Assembly: GCF_013294065.1 (NCBI RefSeq)
Contig: NZ_JABSNM010000008.1
Span: forward strand, 62,001 to 126,000
Direction: 5' to 3'
DNA length: 64,000 nucleotides
Origin: Sphaerotilus uruguayifluvii
GTDB taxonomy: Bacteria; Pseudomonadota; Gammaproteobacteria; Burkholderiales; Burkholderiaceae_C
Shown in pieces: positions 39,612-48,011 of this stretch (positions within the stretch are counted from its first letter, which is position 1; every line of letters begins with the position of its first letter). The translations under genes and the position numbers were made by a program. The notes beneath the pieces were generated by a model. That model saw nothing but the letters and a program-made list of their open reading frames with translations, made no database searches and was not told the origin of the DNA.

Positions 39612-42600
39612 TCACATGCTGCGCCGATACTGCCCGCCCACCTCGAACAGCGCGCTGGTGATCTGCCCCAGCGAGCACACCCGCACCGCGTCCATCAGCA
39701 CCTCGAACACGTTGGCGTTGTCGATCACCGCCTGCTGAAGCCGCTTGAGCATCGCCGGTGCCGCGGCGGCGTGGCGGGCGTGGAAGTCGTTCAGGCGCTG
39801 GAGCTGCGACTGCTTCTCCTCCTCGGTCGAGCGGGCCAGCTCGATCGACTCGGGCACCGCGTCGCCGTGCGGGTTGCGGAAGGTGTTGACGCCGATGATC
39901 GGGTACTCGCCGGTGTGCTTGAGCATCTCGTAGTGCATCGACTCTTCCTGGATCTTCGAGCGCTGGTAGCCCGTCTCCATCGCGCCGAGCACGCCGCCGC
40001 GGTCGGCGATCTTCTCGAACTCGGCCAGCACGGCTTCCTCGACCAGCTCGGTCAGCTCGTCGATGATGAACGCGCCCTGGCTCGGGTTCTCGTTCTTCGC
40101 CAGGCCCCACTCGCGGTTGATGATGAGCTGGATGGCCATCGCGCGGCGCACCGATTCCTCGGTCGGCGTCGTGATCGCCTCGTCGAAGGCGTTGGTGTGC
40201 AGCGAGTTGCAGTTGTCGTAGATCGCGATCAGCGCCTGCAGCGTGGTGCGGATGTCGTTGAACTGGATCTCCTGCGCGTGCAGGCTGCGGCCGGAGGTCT
40301 GGATGTGGTACTTCAGCTTCTGGCTGCGCTCGCTGGCGCCGTACTTGTCGCGCATCGCCACCGCCCAGATGCGCCGGGCGACGCGGCCGAGCACGGTGTA
40401 CTCGGGGTCCATGCCGTTCGAGAAGAAGAACGACAGGTTGGGCGCGAAGTCGTCGACGTGCATGCCGCGCGCCAGGTACGCCTCCACGAAGGTGAAGCCG
40501 TTCGACAGCGTGAAGGCGAGCTGGCTGATCGGGTTCGCGCCGGCTTCGGCGATGTGATAGCCCGAGATCGAGACGGAATAGAAGTTGCGCACGTCGTGGT
40601 GCACGAAGTAGGCGGCGATGTCGCCCATGACCTTCAGGCTGAACTCGGTCGAGAAGATGCAGGTGTTCTGGCCCTGGTCTTCCTTCAGGATGTCGGCCTG
40701 CACCGTGCCGCGCACGTTGGCCAGCACCCAGGCTCGGATCTTGGCGGCCTCGTCGTCGGTCGGGTCGCGGCCGTTGTCGGTGCGGAACTTGGTCGTCTGC
40801 TGGTCGATCGCGGTGTTCATGAACATCGCCAGGATCGACGGCGCCGGGCCGTTGATCGTCATCGACACCGAGGTGGTCGGGCTGCACAGGTCGAAGCCGT
40901 CGTACAGCACCTTCAGGTCGTCGAGCGTCGCGATCGACACGCCCGAGTTGCCGACCTTGCCGTAGATGTCCGGACGCGGGTCGGGGTCGGAGCCGTAGAG
41001 CGTGACCGAGTCGAACGCGGTCGACAGCCGCTTGGCCGGCATGCCCTCGCTGACCAGCTTGAAGCGGCGGTTGGTGCGGAAGGCGTCGCCCTCGCCGGCG
41101 AACATGCGCGTCGGATCCTCGCCCTCGCGCTTGAACGCGAACACGCCGGCGGTGAAGGGGAACGATCCGGGCACGTTCTCCAGCATCAGCCACTTCAGCA
41201 GCTCGCCGTGGCATTCGTACTGCGGCAGCGCGACCTTGCGGATCTTGTTGCCGCTCAGCGTGGTGTGGACCAGGCCGGTGCGGATCTCCTTGTCGCGGAT
41301 CTTCACGACGTACTCGTCGCCGGCGTAGGCCTTCTGCATCGCCGGCCACTGCGCCAGCAGCCGGCGCGCGGCCGGGTCGAGGCGGCCGTCGCGCTCGTCG
41401 GCCAGCGCCAGCACGGTGTTCTTCGCGCCGTCGCGGGTCGGGTCGTTCTCGTGCAGCATGCGGGCGGTCTCGCGCAGCTGCTGGACCTCGCGCGCCAGCG
41501 CGGCCTGCTTGCGCGCGCGGGCCTTGTAGCCGCGCACGGTGTCGGCGATCTCGGCCAGGTAGCGGCTGCGCGCCGGCGGCACGATCGGCGTCTGGTGCGT
41601 GCTGTGGCGGGTGTCGACCGGCGGCAGGCGGCCCTCCTGGAGCCGCAGGCCCAGCGCGCCCAGGCGCACCTTCAGCGCCTGATAGAGCGCGGTCACGCCG
41701 TCGTCGTTGAAGCGGCTGGCCATCGTGCCGAAGACGGGCATCTCCTCCGGACGCCTGCCGAAGGCCTCGCGGTTGCGCTGCACCTGTTTGGCGACATCGC
41801 GCAGCGCGTCCAGCGCGCCCTTGCGGTCGAACTTGTTGATCGCGACGAACTCGGCGAAGTCGAGCATGTCGATCTTCTCGAGCTGGCTGGCGGCGCCGAA
41901 CTCGGGCGTCATCACGTACATCGGCACGTCGACGAAGGGCACGATCGCCGCGTCGCCCTGGCCGATGCCGCTGGTCTCGACGATGACGAGATCGAAGCCG
42001 GCCGCCTTGGCGGCGGCGATCACGTCGGGCAGCGCCGCCGAGATCTCGCTGCCGGTGTCGCGGGTGGCGAGGCTGCGCATCCAGACCCGCGCGCCCTGGC
42101 GCCACGGACCGATCGCGTTCATGCGGATGCGGTCGCCCAGCAGCGCGCCGCCGCTCTTGCGCCGCGACGGATCGATCGAGATGACGGCGATGCGCAGCGC
42201 GTCGTCCTGGTCCAGGCGCAGCCGGCGGATCAGCTCGTCGGTCAGGCTGGACTTGCCGGCGCCGCCGGTGCCGGTGATGCCGAGCACGGGCGTCTGGCTC
42301 GCCCGGGCCGCTTCATGCACCGCGGCGACCACGCCCGCGTCCGCCTTGCCGTTCTCGAGCGCGGTGACGAGCTGCGCCAGCGAACGCCAGGCGGCCTCGG
42401 TGTGGCCCTGCAGCGCGGCGAGTCCGGTCGGCGCGTGGCTCGAGAGATCGCGGTCGCAGCGCATCACCATCTCGCCGATCATGCCGGCCAGGCCCAGGCG
42501 CTGGCCGTCCTCGGGGCTGTAGATGCGCACGCCGTGGCTGTGCAGGTCGCGGATCTCGGCCGGCACGATCACGCCGCCGCCGCCGCCGAAGACCTGCACA

Positions 42601-42902
42601 TGCGCGCCGCCGCGCGCGCGCAGCAGCTCGACCATGTACTTGAAGTACTCGACATGGCCGCCCTGGTAGGAGCTGACCGCGATGCCCTGCACGTCTTCCT
42701 GCAGCGCGGCCGTCACCACCTCGTCGACCGAGCGGTTGTGGCCGAGGTGGATCACCTCCGCGCCCATGCCCTGCAGGATGCGGCGCATGATGTTGATCGA
42801 GGCATCGTGCCCGTCGAACAGGCTGGCTGCCGTCACGAAGCGCACCTTGTGCGTCGGGCGGTAGTTCGCAAGGGCCTGGTGGTCGGCGGCGAGATCGGTC
42901 AT
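39612..42902 (-). CDS. icmF: Fused isobutyryl-CoA mutase IcmF (B12 domain, GTPase chaperone, mutase)
   Basis: A 1096-residue adenosylcobalamin-dependent carbon-skeleton mutase with built-in G-protein chaperone. Order: B12-binding domain with [15 protein letters not shown] (Asp30, His32 as lower ligand, base-off binding) and [14 protein letters not shown]; MeaB-like GTPase at about 205-410 with [40 protein letters not shown] and NKFDRKG; a helical linker; and the TIM-barrel substrate domain with [19 protein letters not shown] and [19 protein letters not shown]. Length and order match IcmF rather than two-subunit methylmalonyl-CoA mutase. It interconverts isobutyryl- and n-butyryl-CoA (some members also use isovaleryl/pivalyl-CoA). 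A perfect palindrome lies 40 bp upstream of the start. Confidence 0.93.
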
Positions 42903-42961: not shown

Positions 42962-43197
42962 TCTGGGGAGAACCCGCACATGAACCGTCGTGCATCGCCG
43001 CGCACCGATCCGCGGCGGCATGCACGTCCGCGGGGCATGGCGTGAATGCATCGAGTCGTGACATGGCGCCTCATTGCCGTGCACCTGTCGCGGGCGTCGC
43101 CTGTCGATGGTGCGCCGCACAAGAAAAACCGGCGCCCGAGCGCCCGCGACCTGTGCTCCATGGCACGGAACGGGCGGTGGAGGCGGGTTTTCCAGGG
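42962..43197. other. Non-coding control region between icmF and the nrtA promoter
   Basis: No gene is supported here; short frames on both strands lack ribosome sites and coding bias. It holds a long inverted repeat (42989-43026) and two sequences resembling NtrC sites of the form TGCACC-N5-GGTGCA: TGCACG-TCCGC-GGGGCA at 43021-43037 (10 of 12 matches) and TGCACC-N5-CGGGCG at 43080-43096 (9 of 12). Both are 115-190 bp upstream of the sigma-54 promoter, a normal distance for enhancer sites. Confidence 0.45.
42989..43026. repeat. Long inverted repeat in the icmF-nrtA gap
   Basis: Outer arms CGTGCAT (42989-42995) and ATGCACG (43020-43026) and inner arms GCCGCG (42997-43002) and CGCGGC (43011-43016) with an 8-base centre. 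No T-tract follows on either strand, so it is more likely a protein site than a terminator. Its right end overlaps the better NtrC-like sequence. Confidence 0.5.
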
Positions 43198-43214
43198 TTG
43201 GCACGGTCCCTGCA
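43198..43214 (+). promoter_or_regulatory. Sigma-54 (RpoN) promoter of the nrt operon
   Basis: TTGGCACG-GTCC-CTGCA matches the RpoN consensus (YTGGCACG-N4-TTGCW) at all but one position. The GG (43200-43201) and GC (43212-43213) are exactly 10 bp apart. Transcription would begin near 43225, directly before the first leader stem-loop. Use of RpoN implies nitrogen control through NtrC or a similar activator. Confidence 0.75.
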
Positions 43215-43225
43215 ATACCTGTTGC

Positions 43226-43280
43226 GAGGCCTCGGCGACGGGGTCTCACTAGGTGGGACATTTTGGACAACGGCGTCCGA
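43226..43280 (+). promoter_or_regulatory. Two leader stem-loops, likely ANTAR-protein target
   Basis: Stem-loop 1 is GAGGCCTC-GGCGAC-GGGGTCTC (43226-43247; 8 pairs with G-U, hexaloop with G at position 4 but G rather than A at position 1). Stem-loop 2 is TTGGAC-AACGGC-GTCCGA (43263-43280; 6 pairs, hexaloop with A1 and G4). Paired stem-loops with A1/G4 hexaloops are the known target of ANTAR antiterminators such as NasR. An alternative hairpin GTCTCAC-TAG-GTGGGAC (43243-43259) competes with stem-loop 1. Confidence 0.65.
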
Positions 43281-43340
43281 TCGTCCCGATGTCCCGGCGA
43301 AAGCCGGGTGTCGGACACGATCGTGACGCCGCTTTTTTTT
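43271..43340 (+). terminator. Leader terminator ahead of nrtA (attenuator)
   Basis: A long interrupted stem: CGGCGTC/GACGCCG, GATCGT/ACGATC, CCGA/TCGG and CCCGGC/GCCGGG, capped by a GAAA tetraloop at 43299-43302 and followed after one base by eight T residues (43333-43340). Its first arm is the loop and 3' side of leader stem-loop 2, so the two structures exclude each other. It stands 35 bp before nrtA and would stop transcription unless antiterminated. Confidence 0.8.
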
Positions 43341-43374
43341 GCCGTCCCCGCTTCTTCCCCTGGAGAGATTCCCC

Positions 43375-44628
43375 ATGACGACGCCCTCGATTCCTGTCAA
43401 CCCGTCCCGGCGCGAGTTCCTGCAGCGCACGGCCGCCGTGGCGGCTGCAGGCAGCGCCGTCACCCTGCCCGGCGGTGCCTGGGCCGCCGGCTCCGATGCG
43501 CCCGAGAAGAAGGAAGTGCGCATCGGCTTCATCCCGCTGACCGACTGCGCCTCGGTGGTGATGGCGTCGGTCATGAAGTTCGACGAGAAGTACGGCATCA
43601 AGATCATCCCGTCGAAGGAGTCCTCCTGGGCCTCCGTGCGCGACAAGCTGGTCAACGGCGAGCTCGACGCGGCCCATGTGCTGTACGGCCTGGTCTACGG
43701 CGTGCACCTGGGCGTCGGCGGTCCGAAGAAGGACATGGCCGTCCTGATGACGCTGAACAACAACGGCCAGGCGATCACGCTGTCGAAGAAGCTCGCCGAC
43801 AAGGGCGCGGTCGACGCGGCCAGCCTGGCCAAGCTGATGAGCTCGGACAAGCGCGAGTACACCTTCGCGCAGACCTTCCCGACCGGCACCCACGCGATGT
43901 GGCTGTACTACTGGCTCGCCTCGGCCGGCATCAACCCGATGAGCGACGCCAAGGTCATCACCGTGCCGCCGCCGCAGATGGTCGCCAACATGCGCGTGGG
44001 CAACATGGACGGCTTCTGCGTCGGCGAGCCCTGGAACCACCGCGCCATCATCGACGGCATCGGCGTGACCGCCGCGACCACCCAGGACATCTGGAAGGAC
44101 CACCCGGAGAAGGTGCTGGGCACCACGGCCGAGTTCGTGCAGAAGAACCCGAACACGGCGCGCGCCATGATCATGGCCATCCTGGATGCGAGCCGCTGGA
44201 TCGACACCGGCCTGCAGAACAAGATGAAGATGGCCGAGACGATCGCCGAGAAGTCCTACGTCAACACCTCGGTCGACGCGATCAACCAGCGCATCCTGGG
44301 CCGCTACCAGAACGGCCTGGGCAAGACCTGGGACGATCCCAACCACATGAAGTTCTTCAACGACGGCGCGGTCAACTACCCCTACCTGTCCGACGGCATG
44401 TGGTTCCTGACCCAGCACCGCCGCTGGGGCCTGCTCAAGAGCGATCCGGACTACCTGGCCGTGGCCAAGGCGGTCAACCAGACGGCGCTCTACAAGGAGG
44501 CCGCCGCCCAGGTGAAGGCCAGCGTCCCGAAGAGCGACATGCGCTCGAGCAAGCTGATCGACGGCGTGGTCTGGGACGGCACGAACCCGGCCAAGTACGC
44601 CGCCAGCTTCAAGATCAAGGCCGCCTGA
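43375..44628 (+). CDS. nrtA: Nitrate ABC transporter substrate-binding protein
   Basis: A 417-residue periplasmic binding protein of the NrtA/CmpA family. The N-terminus SRREFLQRTAAVAAAGSAV is a Tat-type signal with cleavage expected near AWA (about residue 37). The mature protein has VRIGFIPLTDCASVVMA, the SSWASVRDKLVNGELDAAHV block and FCVGEPWNHRAI, all typical of nitrate/nitrite or bicarbonate binders. The start ATG at 43375 is preceded by GGAGAG. A sigma-54 promoter and ANTAR-type leader upstream argue for nitrate rather than bicarbonate or taurine. It heads the nrtA-nrtB-nrtD operon, which ends at the terminator at 46525. Confidence 0.9.
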   Translation: MTTPSIPVNPSRREFLQRTAAVAAAGSAVTLPGGAWAAGSDAPEKKEVRIGFIPLTDCASVVMASVMKFDEKYGIKIIPSKESSWASVRDKLVNGELDAAHVLYGLVYGVHLGVGGPKKDMAVLMTLNNNGQAITLSKKLADKGAVDAASLAKLMSSDKREYTFAQTFPTGTHAMWLYYWLASAGINPMSDAKVITVPPPQMVANMRVGNMDGFCVGEPWNHRAIIDGIGVTAATTQDIWKDHPEKVLGTTAEFVQKNPNTARAMIMAILDASRWIDTGLQNKMKMAETIAEKSYVNTSVDAINQRILGRYQNGLGKTWDDPNHMKFFNDGAVNYPYLSDGMWFLTQHRRWGLLKSDPDYLAVAKAVNQTALYKEAAAQVKASVPKSDMRSSKLIDGVVWDGTNPAKYAASFKIKAA

Positions 44629-44689: not shown

Positions 44690-45571
44690 ATGAACGCTGC
44701 CACCCTGCCCGTTGCCGGCGCTGCTGCGCCGGCCGCCCCGGTGCTCGACGCCGAGACCCAGGCGCGCATGAAGGCCCAGGCCGAGGCCATGGCCCGCGCC
44801 CAGCGCCTGCGCACGATGACCCGCCTTGCCGCGCCGGTGGTGGGCTTCGCGTTCTTCCTGCTGGTGTGGCAGGCGGTGGCGCACAGCGGCGACAAGCAGC
44901 TGCCCGGACCGCTGGCGGTCTGGGACGCGGCGGTCAAGCTGTTCTCGGACCCGTTCTACGTCAACGGCCCGAACGACCAGGGCATCGGCTGGAACGTGCT
45001 GGCCTCGCTCAAGCGCGTCGGCATCGGCTTCGGCCTGGCGGCGCTGGTGGGCATTCCGCTGGGCTTCCTGATCGGCCGCTTCGCCTTCTTCAACCAGATG
45101 CTCGACCCGATCATCAGCCTGCTGCGGCCGGTGTCGCCGCTGGCCTGGCTGCCGATCGGCCTGATGGTGTTCAAGGCCGCCAACCCGGCCGCGATCTGGA
45201 CGATCTTCATCTGCTCGATCTGGCCGATGGTCATCAACACCGCGGTGGGGGTGCGGCAGGTGCCGCAGGACTACCTGAACGTCGCGCGTGTGCTGAACCT
45301 GTCGGAGCTGACGATCATCCGCAAGATCCTCTTCCCGGCCGTGCTGCCCTACATGCTGACCGGCATCCGGCTGGCGGTGGGCACGGCCTGGCTGGTGATC
45401 GTCGCGGCCGAGATGCTGACCGGCGGCCAGGGCATCGGCTTCTGGCTGTGGGACGAGTGGAACAACCTGAACGTCGCCCACATCCTGATCGCGATCTTCG
45501 TCATCGGTGGCGTGGGTCTGGCGCTCGAGGCCCTGCTGATGGCCATCGCCCGCCGCTTCGACTACTCCTGA
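44690..45571 (+). CDS. nrtB: Nitrate ABC transporter permease
   Basis: A 293-residue inner-membrane permease with six predicted helices, the first at about 45-62. The ABC-permease EAA-like loop is in [33 protein letters not shown] (landmarks [19 protein letters not shown]), preceded by [30 protein letters not shown] features typical of NrtB/SsuC-type permeases. The N-terminal 40 residues are Ala-rich and charged ([16 protein letters not shown]) and would lie in the cytoplasm. A clear AAGGAG ribosome site precedes the ATG. The gap to nrtA is 61 bp and to nrtD 34 bp. Confidence 0.92.
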
Positions 45572-45605: not shown

Positions 45606-46445
45606 ATGAGCCAAGCCAATCTGGACACCCGCAGCCAGCGCTTCCTGAGCATCGAGAACGTCGGCATGTCCTTCCCGACGAAGAAGGGCACCTTCGTCGC
45701 GCTGCGCGACATCAACCTGGAGGTGGCCCGCGGCGAGTTCATCTCGCTGATCGGCCACTCCGGCTGCGGCAAGTCGACGCTGCTGAACCTGGTCGCCGGC
45801 CTGACCACGCCGACCTCGGGCGTGCTGCTGCTCGACGGCCGCGAGCTGAAGGGGCCGGGCCCGGAGCGCGCGGTGGTGTTCCAGAACCACTCGCTGCTGC
45901 CGTGGCTGACCTGCATGGAGAACGTCTACCTGGCGGTCGAGCGCGTCTTCGGCGCCACCGAGAACAAGGCCAGGCTGCGCGAGCGCTCGCTGGCGGCCCT
46001 GGAGCTGGTCAACCTGAGCCACGCCCGGGACAAGCGCCCGGGCGAGATCTCCGGCGGCATGAAGCAGCGCGTGGGCATCGCCCGGGCGCTGGCGATGGAG
46101 CCGAAGATGCTGCTGATGGACGAGCCCTTCGGCGCGCTGGACGCGCTGACCCGCGCCAAGCTGCAGGACGAGATGATGAAGATCGTCGCCACCACCGGCT
46201 CGACCGTCATGATGGTGACGCACGACGTCGACGAGGCGGTGCTGCTGTCGGACCGCATCGTGATGCTGACCAACGGCCCGGCGGCGACCATCGGCGAGAT
46301 CCACCAGGTGCCGCTGGCGCCGATCCGCGAGCAGTTCCGCCCGCGTCTCGAGATGGCACACGACGCCGGCTACCTGGCCTCGCGCGAGGCGGTGCTGGAG
46401 TTCCTGTACCACAAGCAGGCGCACGTCGAGAAGGACGCCGCCTGA
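45606..46445 (+). CDS. nrtD: Nitrate ABC transporter ATP-binding protein
   Basis: A 279-residue ABC ATPase. Walker A is [13 protein letters not shown], the Q-loop [16 protein letters not shown], the signature [15 protein letters not shown], Walker [14 protein letters not shown], and the switch His in [13 protein letters not shown]. The QNHSLLPW and GAL(D)[14 protein letters not shown] details match NrtD-type ATPases. It is shorter than cyanobacterial NrtC and has no fused substrate-binding domain. Final gene of the operon; a strong terminator begins 79 bp after its stop. Confidence 0.92.
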
Positions 46446-46630: not shown

Positions 46631-47197
46631 GTGCGGAATGACGATGTCAGCGCATCGCGCCGACACAGGCTGGAGCCATCTTTGGGGATCCCGTGCAAGA
46701 CATCGGCCGGTCATGCCGAACTGGCCGCGCGCGAGCAGCGCCTGTCGCAGCGCCATCGGCTGCTGCTGCTGCTGGTGGACGGGCAGCGCACGCTCGAGGA
46801 GGTGGTCGAGCAGGGGCGCCGCGCCGGTGTGCCGCGCGGCTACATCGACGAGCTGTTCGCCCTCGGGCTGATCGTCATCGGTCCGCCGCCGACCGCGCCG
46901 ATGCCGCTCGACGGGCCCGACACGGTCGGGCCGGGCACGGCGGTCAGCGACACCGAGCTGGCCCGCCTCGACGCGGGCGACGCCTCGTTCGCGCAGGCGC
47001 GCCAGATGCTGATCGGGCTGCTGCGCAGCCATGTGCCGCTGGCCGGGGCCGTGACGATGCTCAGGGTCAGGCGGGCACGCTCTCGCGCAGAATTGCAGGC
47101 CCTGCTGCCGGACGTGCGGGCACGCCTCGAGCGCGTGCGGCAGCCGGGCGAGATGCGCGAGCAGCTGCTGCGCGTCGAGTCGCTGCTGGCGTCCTGA
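46631..47197 (+). CDS. Conserved-looking protein of unknown function with winged-helix-like segment
   Basis: A protein of up to 188 residues that I do not recognise. The segment [25 protein letters not shown] followed by [13 protein letters not shown] looks like a small winged-helix module of the type seen in proteins with a 'divided by growth state' regulatory tail, but this is only a resemblance. The C-terminal half is helical and rich in Arg/Glu/Leu ([22 protein letters not shown]), with no membrane helix. The start is uncertain: GTG at 46631 is the first possible codon shown, and the clear codon bias begins only near 46725. It lies between the nrt terminator and coaX, which starts 43 bp on. 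Confidence 0.55.
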
Positions 47198-47240: not shown

Positions 47241-48011
47241 ATGAGTTTCCTGGTCATCGACATCGGCAACACGCGGCTCAAGTGGGGCCTGTACGAGGCG
47301 CCCCGGCCCGGCGCGGACCTGATCGCGCAGGGCGCGGTCTTTCTCGAGGCGATCGACCGGCTGTCCGACGAGGGCTGGGCCGCGCTGCCGGTGCCCGGCC
47401 GCATGCTCGGCTGCGCGGTGGCGGGGCAGGGCGTGCGCCGCCGCGCCGAGGAGCAGCTCGAACTCTGGGACCTGACGCCGCGCTGGGTGGTGTCGCAGCC
47501 GCAGGACGCCGGCGTGACCAACGGCTACGAGCATCCGGCGCGGCTGGGCTCGGACCGCTGGCTGGCGATGATCGGCGCGCGAGCGCGGGTGCTCGCCGCC
47601 GGCCCGGCGCGGCCGGCGCTGGTCGTGATGGTCGGCACCGCGGTGACGGTCGACGCGATGGACGCGGACGGGCGGTTTCTCGGCGGGCTGATCCTGCCGG
47701 GCTTCGGGCTGATGCTGCAGGCGCTGGAGTCGGGCACCGCCGGGCTGAAGGTGCCCACCGGCGAGGTGCGCGAGTTCCCGACCAACACCAGCGACGCGCT
47801 GATGAGCGGCGGCACCTACGGCATCGCCGGCGCGATCGAGCGCATGCACCGCCACCTGCTGCGCCGCTGCGGCGCCGAGCCGGTGCTGCTGATGGGCGGC
47901 GGCGCCGCGGTCAAGCTCGCGCCCGAGACCGACCTGCCCTTCGAGCTGGTCGACACGCTGATCTTCGAGGGCCTGCTGCGCCTCGGGGCTCAGGAGTTCC
48001 CGGACGGCTGA
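47241..48011 (+). CDS. coaX: Type III pantothenate kinase
   Basis: A 256-residue ASKHA-fold kinase that phosphorylates pantothenate, the first step of coenzyme A synthesis. The phosphate-1 motif is [17 protein letters not shown], the pantothenate-binding and catalytic region [14 protein letters not shown], and the phosphate-2 motif [34 protein letters not shown] and [11 protein letters not shown] follow. The ATG is at 47241. Its 3' end overlaps the end of the K+ channel gene on the other strand by 22 bp. birA, often fused or adjacent to coaX in betaproteobacteria, is not next to it. Confidence 0.92.

Follow-up and report, generated by a model that had tools for sequence, protein, structure and literature searches.

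The DNA analysed here (the window) is a 64,000-nt stretch of contig 8 of the 4.89 Mb Sphaerotilus uruguayifluvii genome. It contains the nitrate transport genes nrtABD behind a sigma-54 promoter, two hairpins and a long terminator. The features of the locus are as follows.

39612..42902, minus strand: IcmF-like methylmalonyl-CoA mutase (Pfam MM_CoA_mutase, MeaB and B12-binding), upstream neighbour of the RNA by synteny
43109..43120, strand not assigned: GGTGC-N2-GCAC palindrome, candidate NtrC-type activator site 90 nt upstream of the sigma-54 site
43199..43213, plus strand: sigma-54 promoter TGGCACGGTCCCTGC, GG-N10-GC by sequence reading, with TGGCACG...TGC in 13/13 genus copies
43226..43247, plus strand: hairpin 1 (SL1), loop GGCGAC; stem covaries in 13 genomes, loop not conserved
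43249..43262, plus strand: conserved element CTAGGTGGGACATT, identical in 13/13 genomes; predicted to be unpaired save for its last bases in the window copy
43263..43280, plus strand: hairpin 2 (SL2), UUGGAC[AACGGC]GUCCGA, ANTAR-type hexaloop; loop invariant in 13 genomes
43271..43331, plus strand: terminator stem, using the SL2 loop and 3' arm (43271-43280); pairing kept in the genus
43333..43340, plus strand: T8 run, read from the sequence
43375..44628, plus strand: nrtA, nitrate ABC transporter substrate-binding protein with TAT signal (above cut-off); Pfam NMT1_2 352.6 bits; ATG at 43375
44690..45571, plus strand: nrtB, permease (TIGR01183 above cut-off)
45606..46445, plus strand: nrtD, ATPase (TIGR01184 above cut-off)
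46682..47197, plus strand: gene without known function, which by synteny adjoins the RNA downstream where nrtABD is absent
47241..48011, plus strand: coaX, type III pantothenate kinase (Pfam Pan_kinase), downstream of the RNA in 13/13 genomes

Anatomy of the leader

Direct reading placed the RpoN promoter, with exact GG-N10-GC spacing, at 43199-43213, where the first-pass annotation, made from the letters alone, had put it. The two stem-loops (43226-43247 and 43263-43280), the long terminator with T8 (43271-43340) ahead of nrtA, and the SL2 hexaloop AACGGC, whose loop and 3' arm double as the first arm of the terminator, also lie as that annotation had described, and the last arrangement is kept in 13/13 Sphaerotilus genomes. 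Judging from the position of the sigma-54 site, transcription probably starts near 43225. No Rfam riboswitch or other Rfam family reached its gathering score in the window.

A simple motif scan found no sigma-70-like site in 43100-43420 of the window; promoter/terminator scanning also missed the T8 terminator with its long, bulged stem. In 9/9 genomes in which nrtABD follows this RNA, nrtA starts 12-37 nt past the T-run. Given this short distance and the lack of a sigma-70-like site, nrtABD most likely depends on read-through of the terminator, no other source of nrtA mRNA being evident.

The sequence GGTGC-N2-4-GCA[CG] occurs within 200 nt upstream in 9/13 genus copies, exactly the nine with nrtABD, compared with 0.3 expected. 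In other genera GGTGC-N2-4-GCAS was found upstream of 25/67 sigma-54 sites (1.4 expected). A second arrangement, GCAC-N6-8-GTGC, lies upstream of the sigma-54 site in 4/13 genus copies (0.6 expected) and 31/67 regions of other genera (3.2 expected). These palindromes are candidate NtrC sites.

The same RNA with and without nrtABD

The host genome (G000) was compared with congeners G001-G012, of which G008 is 83% and G011 68% complete. A window-type RNA is followed by nrtABD in 9/13 genomes (G000, G001, G003, G006-G009, G011 and G012). In the other four (G002, G004, G005 and G010) an orphan RNA occupies the same junction and nrtABD is absent behind it. The RNA is flanked by coaX in 13/13, with coaX matched only in part in G004 and G005, where the examined stretch ends. 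An icmF-like gene lies on the other flank in 11/13; no icmF match was found within the stretch examined around the RNA of G003 or G008. The four orphan genomes have nrtABD elsewhere, behind its own leader with two purine-1/G4 hexaloops, as scored by an automatic rule (the looser one mentioned below) in G005 and G010 and by eye in G002 and G004. As 4/13 genomes carry this RNA at the corresponding junction with no nrtABD behind it, a role as nrtABD leader does not fully account for it. It is probably a stand-alone RNA gene as well, and its terminated form very probably has a second role independent of nrtABD.

The icmF tree, from which G003, G008 and G011 were left out, agrees with a single insertion of nrtABD (support 0.967). 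The coaX, nrtA, nrtB and nrtD trees leave the insertion history unsettled; icmF and coaX conflict over G001, and nrtA of G002/G005 nests next to nrtA of G001 (support 0.877).

Several genomes show local peculiarities. G003 (L195, C8) has two nrtA genes in tandem, which share 89% and 66% identity with that of the window, and a window-type RNA lies between them. The nrtA of G012 (L201, C90) is just 81% identical to the window's, its nrtB and nrtD are 95-97% identical, and it groups with G010 nrtA, which suggests recombination. Just past the orphan terminators, G002 and G005 (L192, L238) resemble each other over a stretch that opens with GATGAACCTGAACTG or GATGAATCTGAACTG and has an ATG 22 nt downstream of the T-run; this could be a short frame or could reflect recent shared ancestry.

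Conservation and folding

Both CTAGGTGGGACATT and TTGGACAACGGCGTCCG are invariant in 13/13 genomes, with a spacing of 0 or 1 base between them. The first-pass annotation had named loss of SL2 or of the shared arm in close relatives as evidence against its reading; both are kept in 13/13 congeneric copies. Among the four orphans, mean pairwise identity in an ungapped, anchored alignment is 0.94-0.97 for the block, 0.76 for the promoter and 0.65 for hairpin 1, with 0.31 and 0.38 for the upstream and downstream flanks, respectively. BLAST of the host genome returned the window copy alone, with no second copy of the leader. The 14-mer CTAGGTGGGACATT occurs once per genome at ≤1 mismatch on both strands of the 13 genomes, and a long antisense target for it was rejected at that threshold. 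An outer stem GGGAC/GUCCC around SL2 was rejected as the cause of the conserved block, as it is broken in orphan G010 where GGGAC is kept. Finally, a mobile-element origin of the block was dismissed: there is no plasmid match and a single copy per genome.

The SL1 loop is variable: GGCGAC (4 genomes), GGCAAC (2), GGCCAC, AGCGTA, ATCGCA, CTCACG (2) and GGTCCT (2). A1 and G4 occur together in 2 of the 13, G4 in 6, and neither in 7. The deviation of the window loop, proposed earlier to mark a G1 variant of the motif, is therefore real in the window, but the genus as a whole is not merely G1. By the strict ANTAR dual-hexaloop rule (A1 and G4 in both loops) SL2 passes and SL1, with G1, does not, and the window copy fails. 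Requiring just G4 and a C-G closing pair in the two loops would admit the window copy; across the genus SL1 keeps G4 in 6/13 and the C-G pair in 13/13. Purine-1/G4 is present in both loops of 6/9 nrt-linked copies vs 0/4 orphans, a difference that is only suggestive in so few related genomes.

The first-pass annotation had proposed folding the leader and searching relatives for compensatory changes, and both bore out the structure. RNA 43222-43345 folds at -65 kcal/mol, far more stably than its shuffles (z = -4.66; 0/200 equal it). The SL1 and terminator stems covary over the 13 Sphaerotilus copies, with 13 double-changed cells compared with 4.4 in shuffles (0/500 shuffles reach this number). 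In SL1 98.3% of cells are paired, with pairing-keeping double changes at three pairs. SL2 is paired in 100% of cells, and the terminator stem in 99.5% over 14 pairs, two of which are double-changed, both in orphan G010.

SL2 and the intrinsic terminator are mutually exclusive in 13/13 copies, arm 43271-43280 being common to both. The basal terminator helix is part of the predicted best fold of the full RNA in 13/13 copies, and over these full RNAs the terminator fold beats an SL2-forced fold by 2.4-10.7 kcal/mol, the 2.4 margin belonging to orphan G005. In the nascent RNA SL2 lies within the best fold in 11/13 copies, the exceptions being orphans G010 and G004.

nrtA leaders in other genera of the family

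Regions upstream of 68 nrtA homologues, the examined part of those in other genera, were scored with a coded rule: a sigma-54 site followed by two hairpins whose hexaloops have a purine at 1 and G at 4, with one arm of the second hairpin also used by a terminator. A sigma-54 site was found in 67, a hexaloop hairpin overlapping a terminator in addition in 42, and both hairpins in 39. The same three steps retained 141, 0 and 0 of 1360 first-order resampled controls. The remaining 29 regions fail at least one coded rule, and several of these look complete by eye. A looser rule that included the genus copies gave 57/82 and is superseded by the strict 39/68.

A covariance model of the window-type RNA matched in 58/399 family genomes under strict filters, by which weak matches are lost. 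Scores above 90 bits were confined to six Sphaerotilus genomes and the next best was 44 bits. Of the 52 non-genus matches 24 were inspected, and each of these precedes an nrtA homologue, with identities of 76-86% in 23 cases and 34% in the remaining one. One non-genus match (G022, C4:410471) lies about 10 kb from the nrtA of its genome, so not every model match need be an nrtA leader. Because nrtA of other genera stands behind canonical two-hexaloop ANTAR leaders, the antitermination logic for the nrtA leader is well founded. The window leader is a derived version, seen in Sphaerotilus only.

Candidate ANTAR regulators

The reading of the first-pass annotation required an ANTAR-domain protein in the genome, and two ANTAR matches were found, on contigs C25 and C23. 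One is a 446-aa fusion in which a receiver-like part, too weak for the Pfam cut-off, is joined to an ANTAR domain (67.3 bits) and two PilJ stretches (97 bits). Its neighbours in the host are genes for a NarK-type transporter, a PP2C/protein-kinase (kinase/phosphatase) protein, a pyridine-nucleotide reductase and a nasA-type molybdoenzyme. The search for nasR or nasT near an assimilatory nitrate reductase yielded no NIT-ANTAR protein and in its place this ANTAR/PilJ fusion gene beside nasA. The other protein (L002, G000:C23:9500) pairs a typical receiver with a divergent ANTAR domain, which scores 29 bits in one search and 26.4 against a cut-off of 27.3 in another. It is an alternative candidate effector. 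All 13 genus genomes have such a weak, divergent ANTAR match, under the cut-off in three of them.

The likely host regulator is not NasR, nor does it form a clear NasS-NasT pair. No NIT-ANTAR (NasR) protein was found in its genome; unlike in the NasR system, its NIT and ANTAR matches are on separate proteins, the sole NIT match being on C12, whereas congeners G002, G005 and G010 do have a NIT-ANTAR protein (NIT 144-165 bits). With respect to NasS-NasT, the strong host ANTAR protein carries two PilJ domains, the weak receiver-ANTAR protein is present, and no second NrtA/NasS-like partner was found in the host at E <= 1e-40, NrtA being the sole match.

Fusion orthologues occur in 10/13 genus genomes. 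None of the nine nrt-linked genomes has a strong ANTAR match other than the fusion (66-73 bits), and G004 has the fusion plus a 222-aa receiver-ANTAR protein. A strong ANTAR gene adjoins nrtA in G004 (with another elsewhere) and in G010, and is on another contig in G002 and G005. Outside the genus, a fusion-type homologue covering the receiver, ANTAR and PilJ parts was found in about 15 of 118 family genomes searched, and many other family genomes have a receiver and ANTAR-restricted match close upstream of nrtA. Separate PilJ-PilJ frames of about 270-380 aa in family genomes match the C-terminal half of the fusion. These frames are possible nitrate sensors for the short receiver-ANTAR proteins, as if the parts of one regulator were split or fused across the family.

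The PilJ motifs N..G.LRMLSQR and N..GRQRML.QR are kept in 20/20 aligned homologues, ten from the genus and ten picked among the family matches, and presumably resemble the NarX/NarQ P-box. The second PilJ domain aligns weakly (E 0.019) with the solved domain 6gcv, 'Chemotaxis transducer', which we take to be McpN. McpN is reported to bind nitrate via its PilJ domain (cited in PMC8199190). By analogy, the PilJ domains of the fusion would sense nitrate or nitrite directly. The effector of the switch is most likely this receiver-like/ANTAR/PilJ/PilJ protein beside nasA. It would link ANTAR output to PilJ sensor domains. No description of an ANTAR and PilJ architecture, or of the Sphaerotilus RNA, was recognised in the open-access literature searched.

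A gene that is transcribed divergently from the ANTAR-PilJ gene, and is of NarK type wherever this was tested, has its own signals. In 17/24 regions (L004:8310-8550, L007-L016, L123-L136) a sigma-54-like site is followed at 33-38 nt by an [AG]NNG hexaloop hairpin. A second such hairpin lies at 77-85 nt in 7/24, and most regions lack a U-tract terminator by eye. These hairpins are perhaps the fusion's own, non-attenuator type of target.

A proposed default-off attenuator and its alternatives

Sequence anatomy, conservation, covariation, synteny and gene content together point to a nitrate-responsive attenuator for nrtABD, with the fusion as likely effector, built on an RNA that is kept in the absence of nrtABD as well. 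We put the probability of this reading at roughly 60%. The sigma-54 promoter, active under nitrogen limitation, would feed a default-off attenuator, with the RNA starting near 43225. If no effector is bound, terminator 43271-43340 would form and an RNA of about 115 nt would be released. An ANTAR protein holding hairpin 2 would block the terminator, and polymerase would read into nrtABD. Nitrate or nitrite sensing by the PilJ domains would make read-through nitrate-dependent, and the terminated RNA would have a second role with no need of nrtABD.

The ANTAR antitermination leader proposed by the first-pass annotation thus stands insofar as nrtA of other genera lies behind nas-type ANTAR leaders and the host has ANTAR proteins; it falls short in that SL1 is not canonical, NasR is missing and the RNA outlives nrtABD. 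In the Enterococcus eutP leader A1 or G4 changes in either loop reduced induction (PMC3369931). Against the attenuator, SL1 G4 is lost in 3/9 nrt-linked genomes (G006, G008, G009), and SL2 is missing from the best nascent fold in 2/4 orphans (G010, G004). The structure of EutV with RNA is reported to permit a single hexaloop, G4 being the sole base-specific contact (PMC8934654), and NasR reportedly bound the two hairpins together about twelvefold more tightly than the second one by itself (PMC7496416). Given these precedents, it is possible that the Sphaerotilus switch operates mainly through hairpin 2, and the leader tests how far the two-hexaloop rule can relax. A further point against pairing of the fusion with the RNA is G004: in this genome the fusion is present, the window-type RNA is an orphan and a different ANTAR gene adjoins nrtA.

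Conservation of the block hardly drops where nrt genes are missing behind it, which a leader serving nrtABD alone would not account for. The presence of the RNA in 13/13 genomes with nrtABD behind it in just nine would fit a primarily trans-acting small RNA, with SL1 as a stabilising 5' stem, CTAGGTGGGACATT...GGACAA as the pairing region, the terminator as 3' end, and nrtABD on leaky read-through without ANTAR control. The covarying SL1 stem with its drifting loop, the invariance of CTAGGTGGGACATT and the two compensatory changes in the G010 terminator also speak for such an RNA. However, the 14-mer has no other site at ≤1 mismatch, although real small-RNA pairing can be shorter, and the ANTAR hexaloop, C-G closing pair and terminator overlap are all invariant, none of which a pairing RNA needs. 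We regard this explanation as unlikely, if the most serious of the rivals.

The orphan RNA could otherwise be a decoy titrating an ANTAR protein, as EutX/Rli55 does for EutV. Such a sponge has precedent (PMC5821096), single-hexaloop binding is structurally allowed (PMC8934654) and SL2 is invariant. Yet the terminated RNA buries the SL2 loop and 3' arm, the terminator being the best fold in 4/4 orphans (by 2.4 kcal/mol in G005), and this makes the decoy improbable. Furthermore, SL1 loops lack G4 in 4/4 orphans, and the EutX site is described as not associated with a terminator (PMC5821096). Least credible of all, and close to dismissed, is that the orphans are inert relics of recent nrtABD loss; the conflicting trees leave the direction of change unsettled, but identity of the flanks has fallen to background, whereas the four orphans, which come from two icmF lineages, are still 94-97% identical in the block, and the G010 terminator carries its two compensatory changes.

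A more far-reaching interpretation is more tentative, and we hold it at below even odds. The Sphaerotilus RNA may be an RNA gene under nitrogen control that ends in a terminator and has a conserved function of its own, kin of the nrtA leader, behind which nrtABD docked in one lineage. There the NIT-ANTAR or short receiver-ANTAR regulator would have been replaced by a one-protein receiver-like/ANTAR/PilJ/PilJ nitrate sensor, leader and small RNA swapping roles. With the RNA present with or without the operon in 13 related genomes, cis and trans roles of a terminated ANTAR-type leader are genetically separable.

Relation to known leaders

The two hairpins, terminator and downstream nitrate genes resemble the Klebsiella NasR/nasF system, in which the terminator behind a two-hairpin motif is bypassed with nitrate (PMC7496416). 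Like the orphan copies, EutX/Rli55 is a stand-alone RNA with an ANTAR-type hexaloop, but its site is terminator-free and downstream of a B12 riboswitch, whereas here the hexaloop overlaps a terminator and no riboswitch reached the gathering score in the window.

The Rfam model P11 (RF00625), which we presume may correspond to the NalA leader, matches 43187-43330 at E 4.3e-5, but with 30 bits against a gathering score of 70 the window RNA does not qualify as a member. Orphan G002 RNA has no Rfam match at E <= 1. The NalA leader of Pseudomonas nirBD is under sigma-54/NtrC and NasT antitermination, and its terminated form is described as a small RNA (PMC3973561, PMC12830290). The window RNA shares with it the sigma-54 promoter, the terminated leader, the nitrate-assimilation context and, as proposed here, ANTAR-dependent read-through. 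It differs from NalA/P11 in that the SL1 loop is non-ANTAR in most genus copies, the regulator is another one and orphan copies exist. The narK RNA (RF03032) scores 13.8 bits (E 2.3) on the window copy. One canonical nrtA leader of another genus, that of G088, scores 36.8 bits for narK RNA (threshold 43.2) and 31.5 bits for P11 (threshold 70). By eye, the consensus sequences of the P11 and narK RNA alignments contain a sigma-54-like site and ANTAR-like hexaloops, and both families may be ANTAR leaders.
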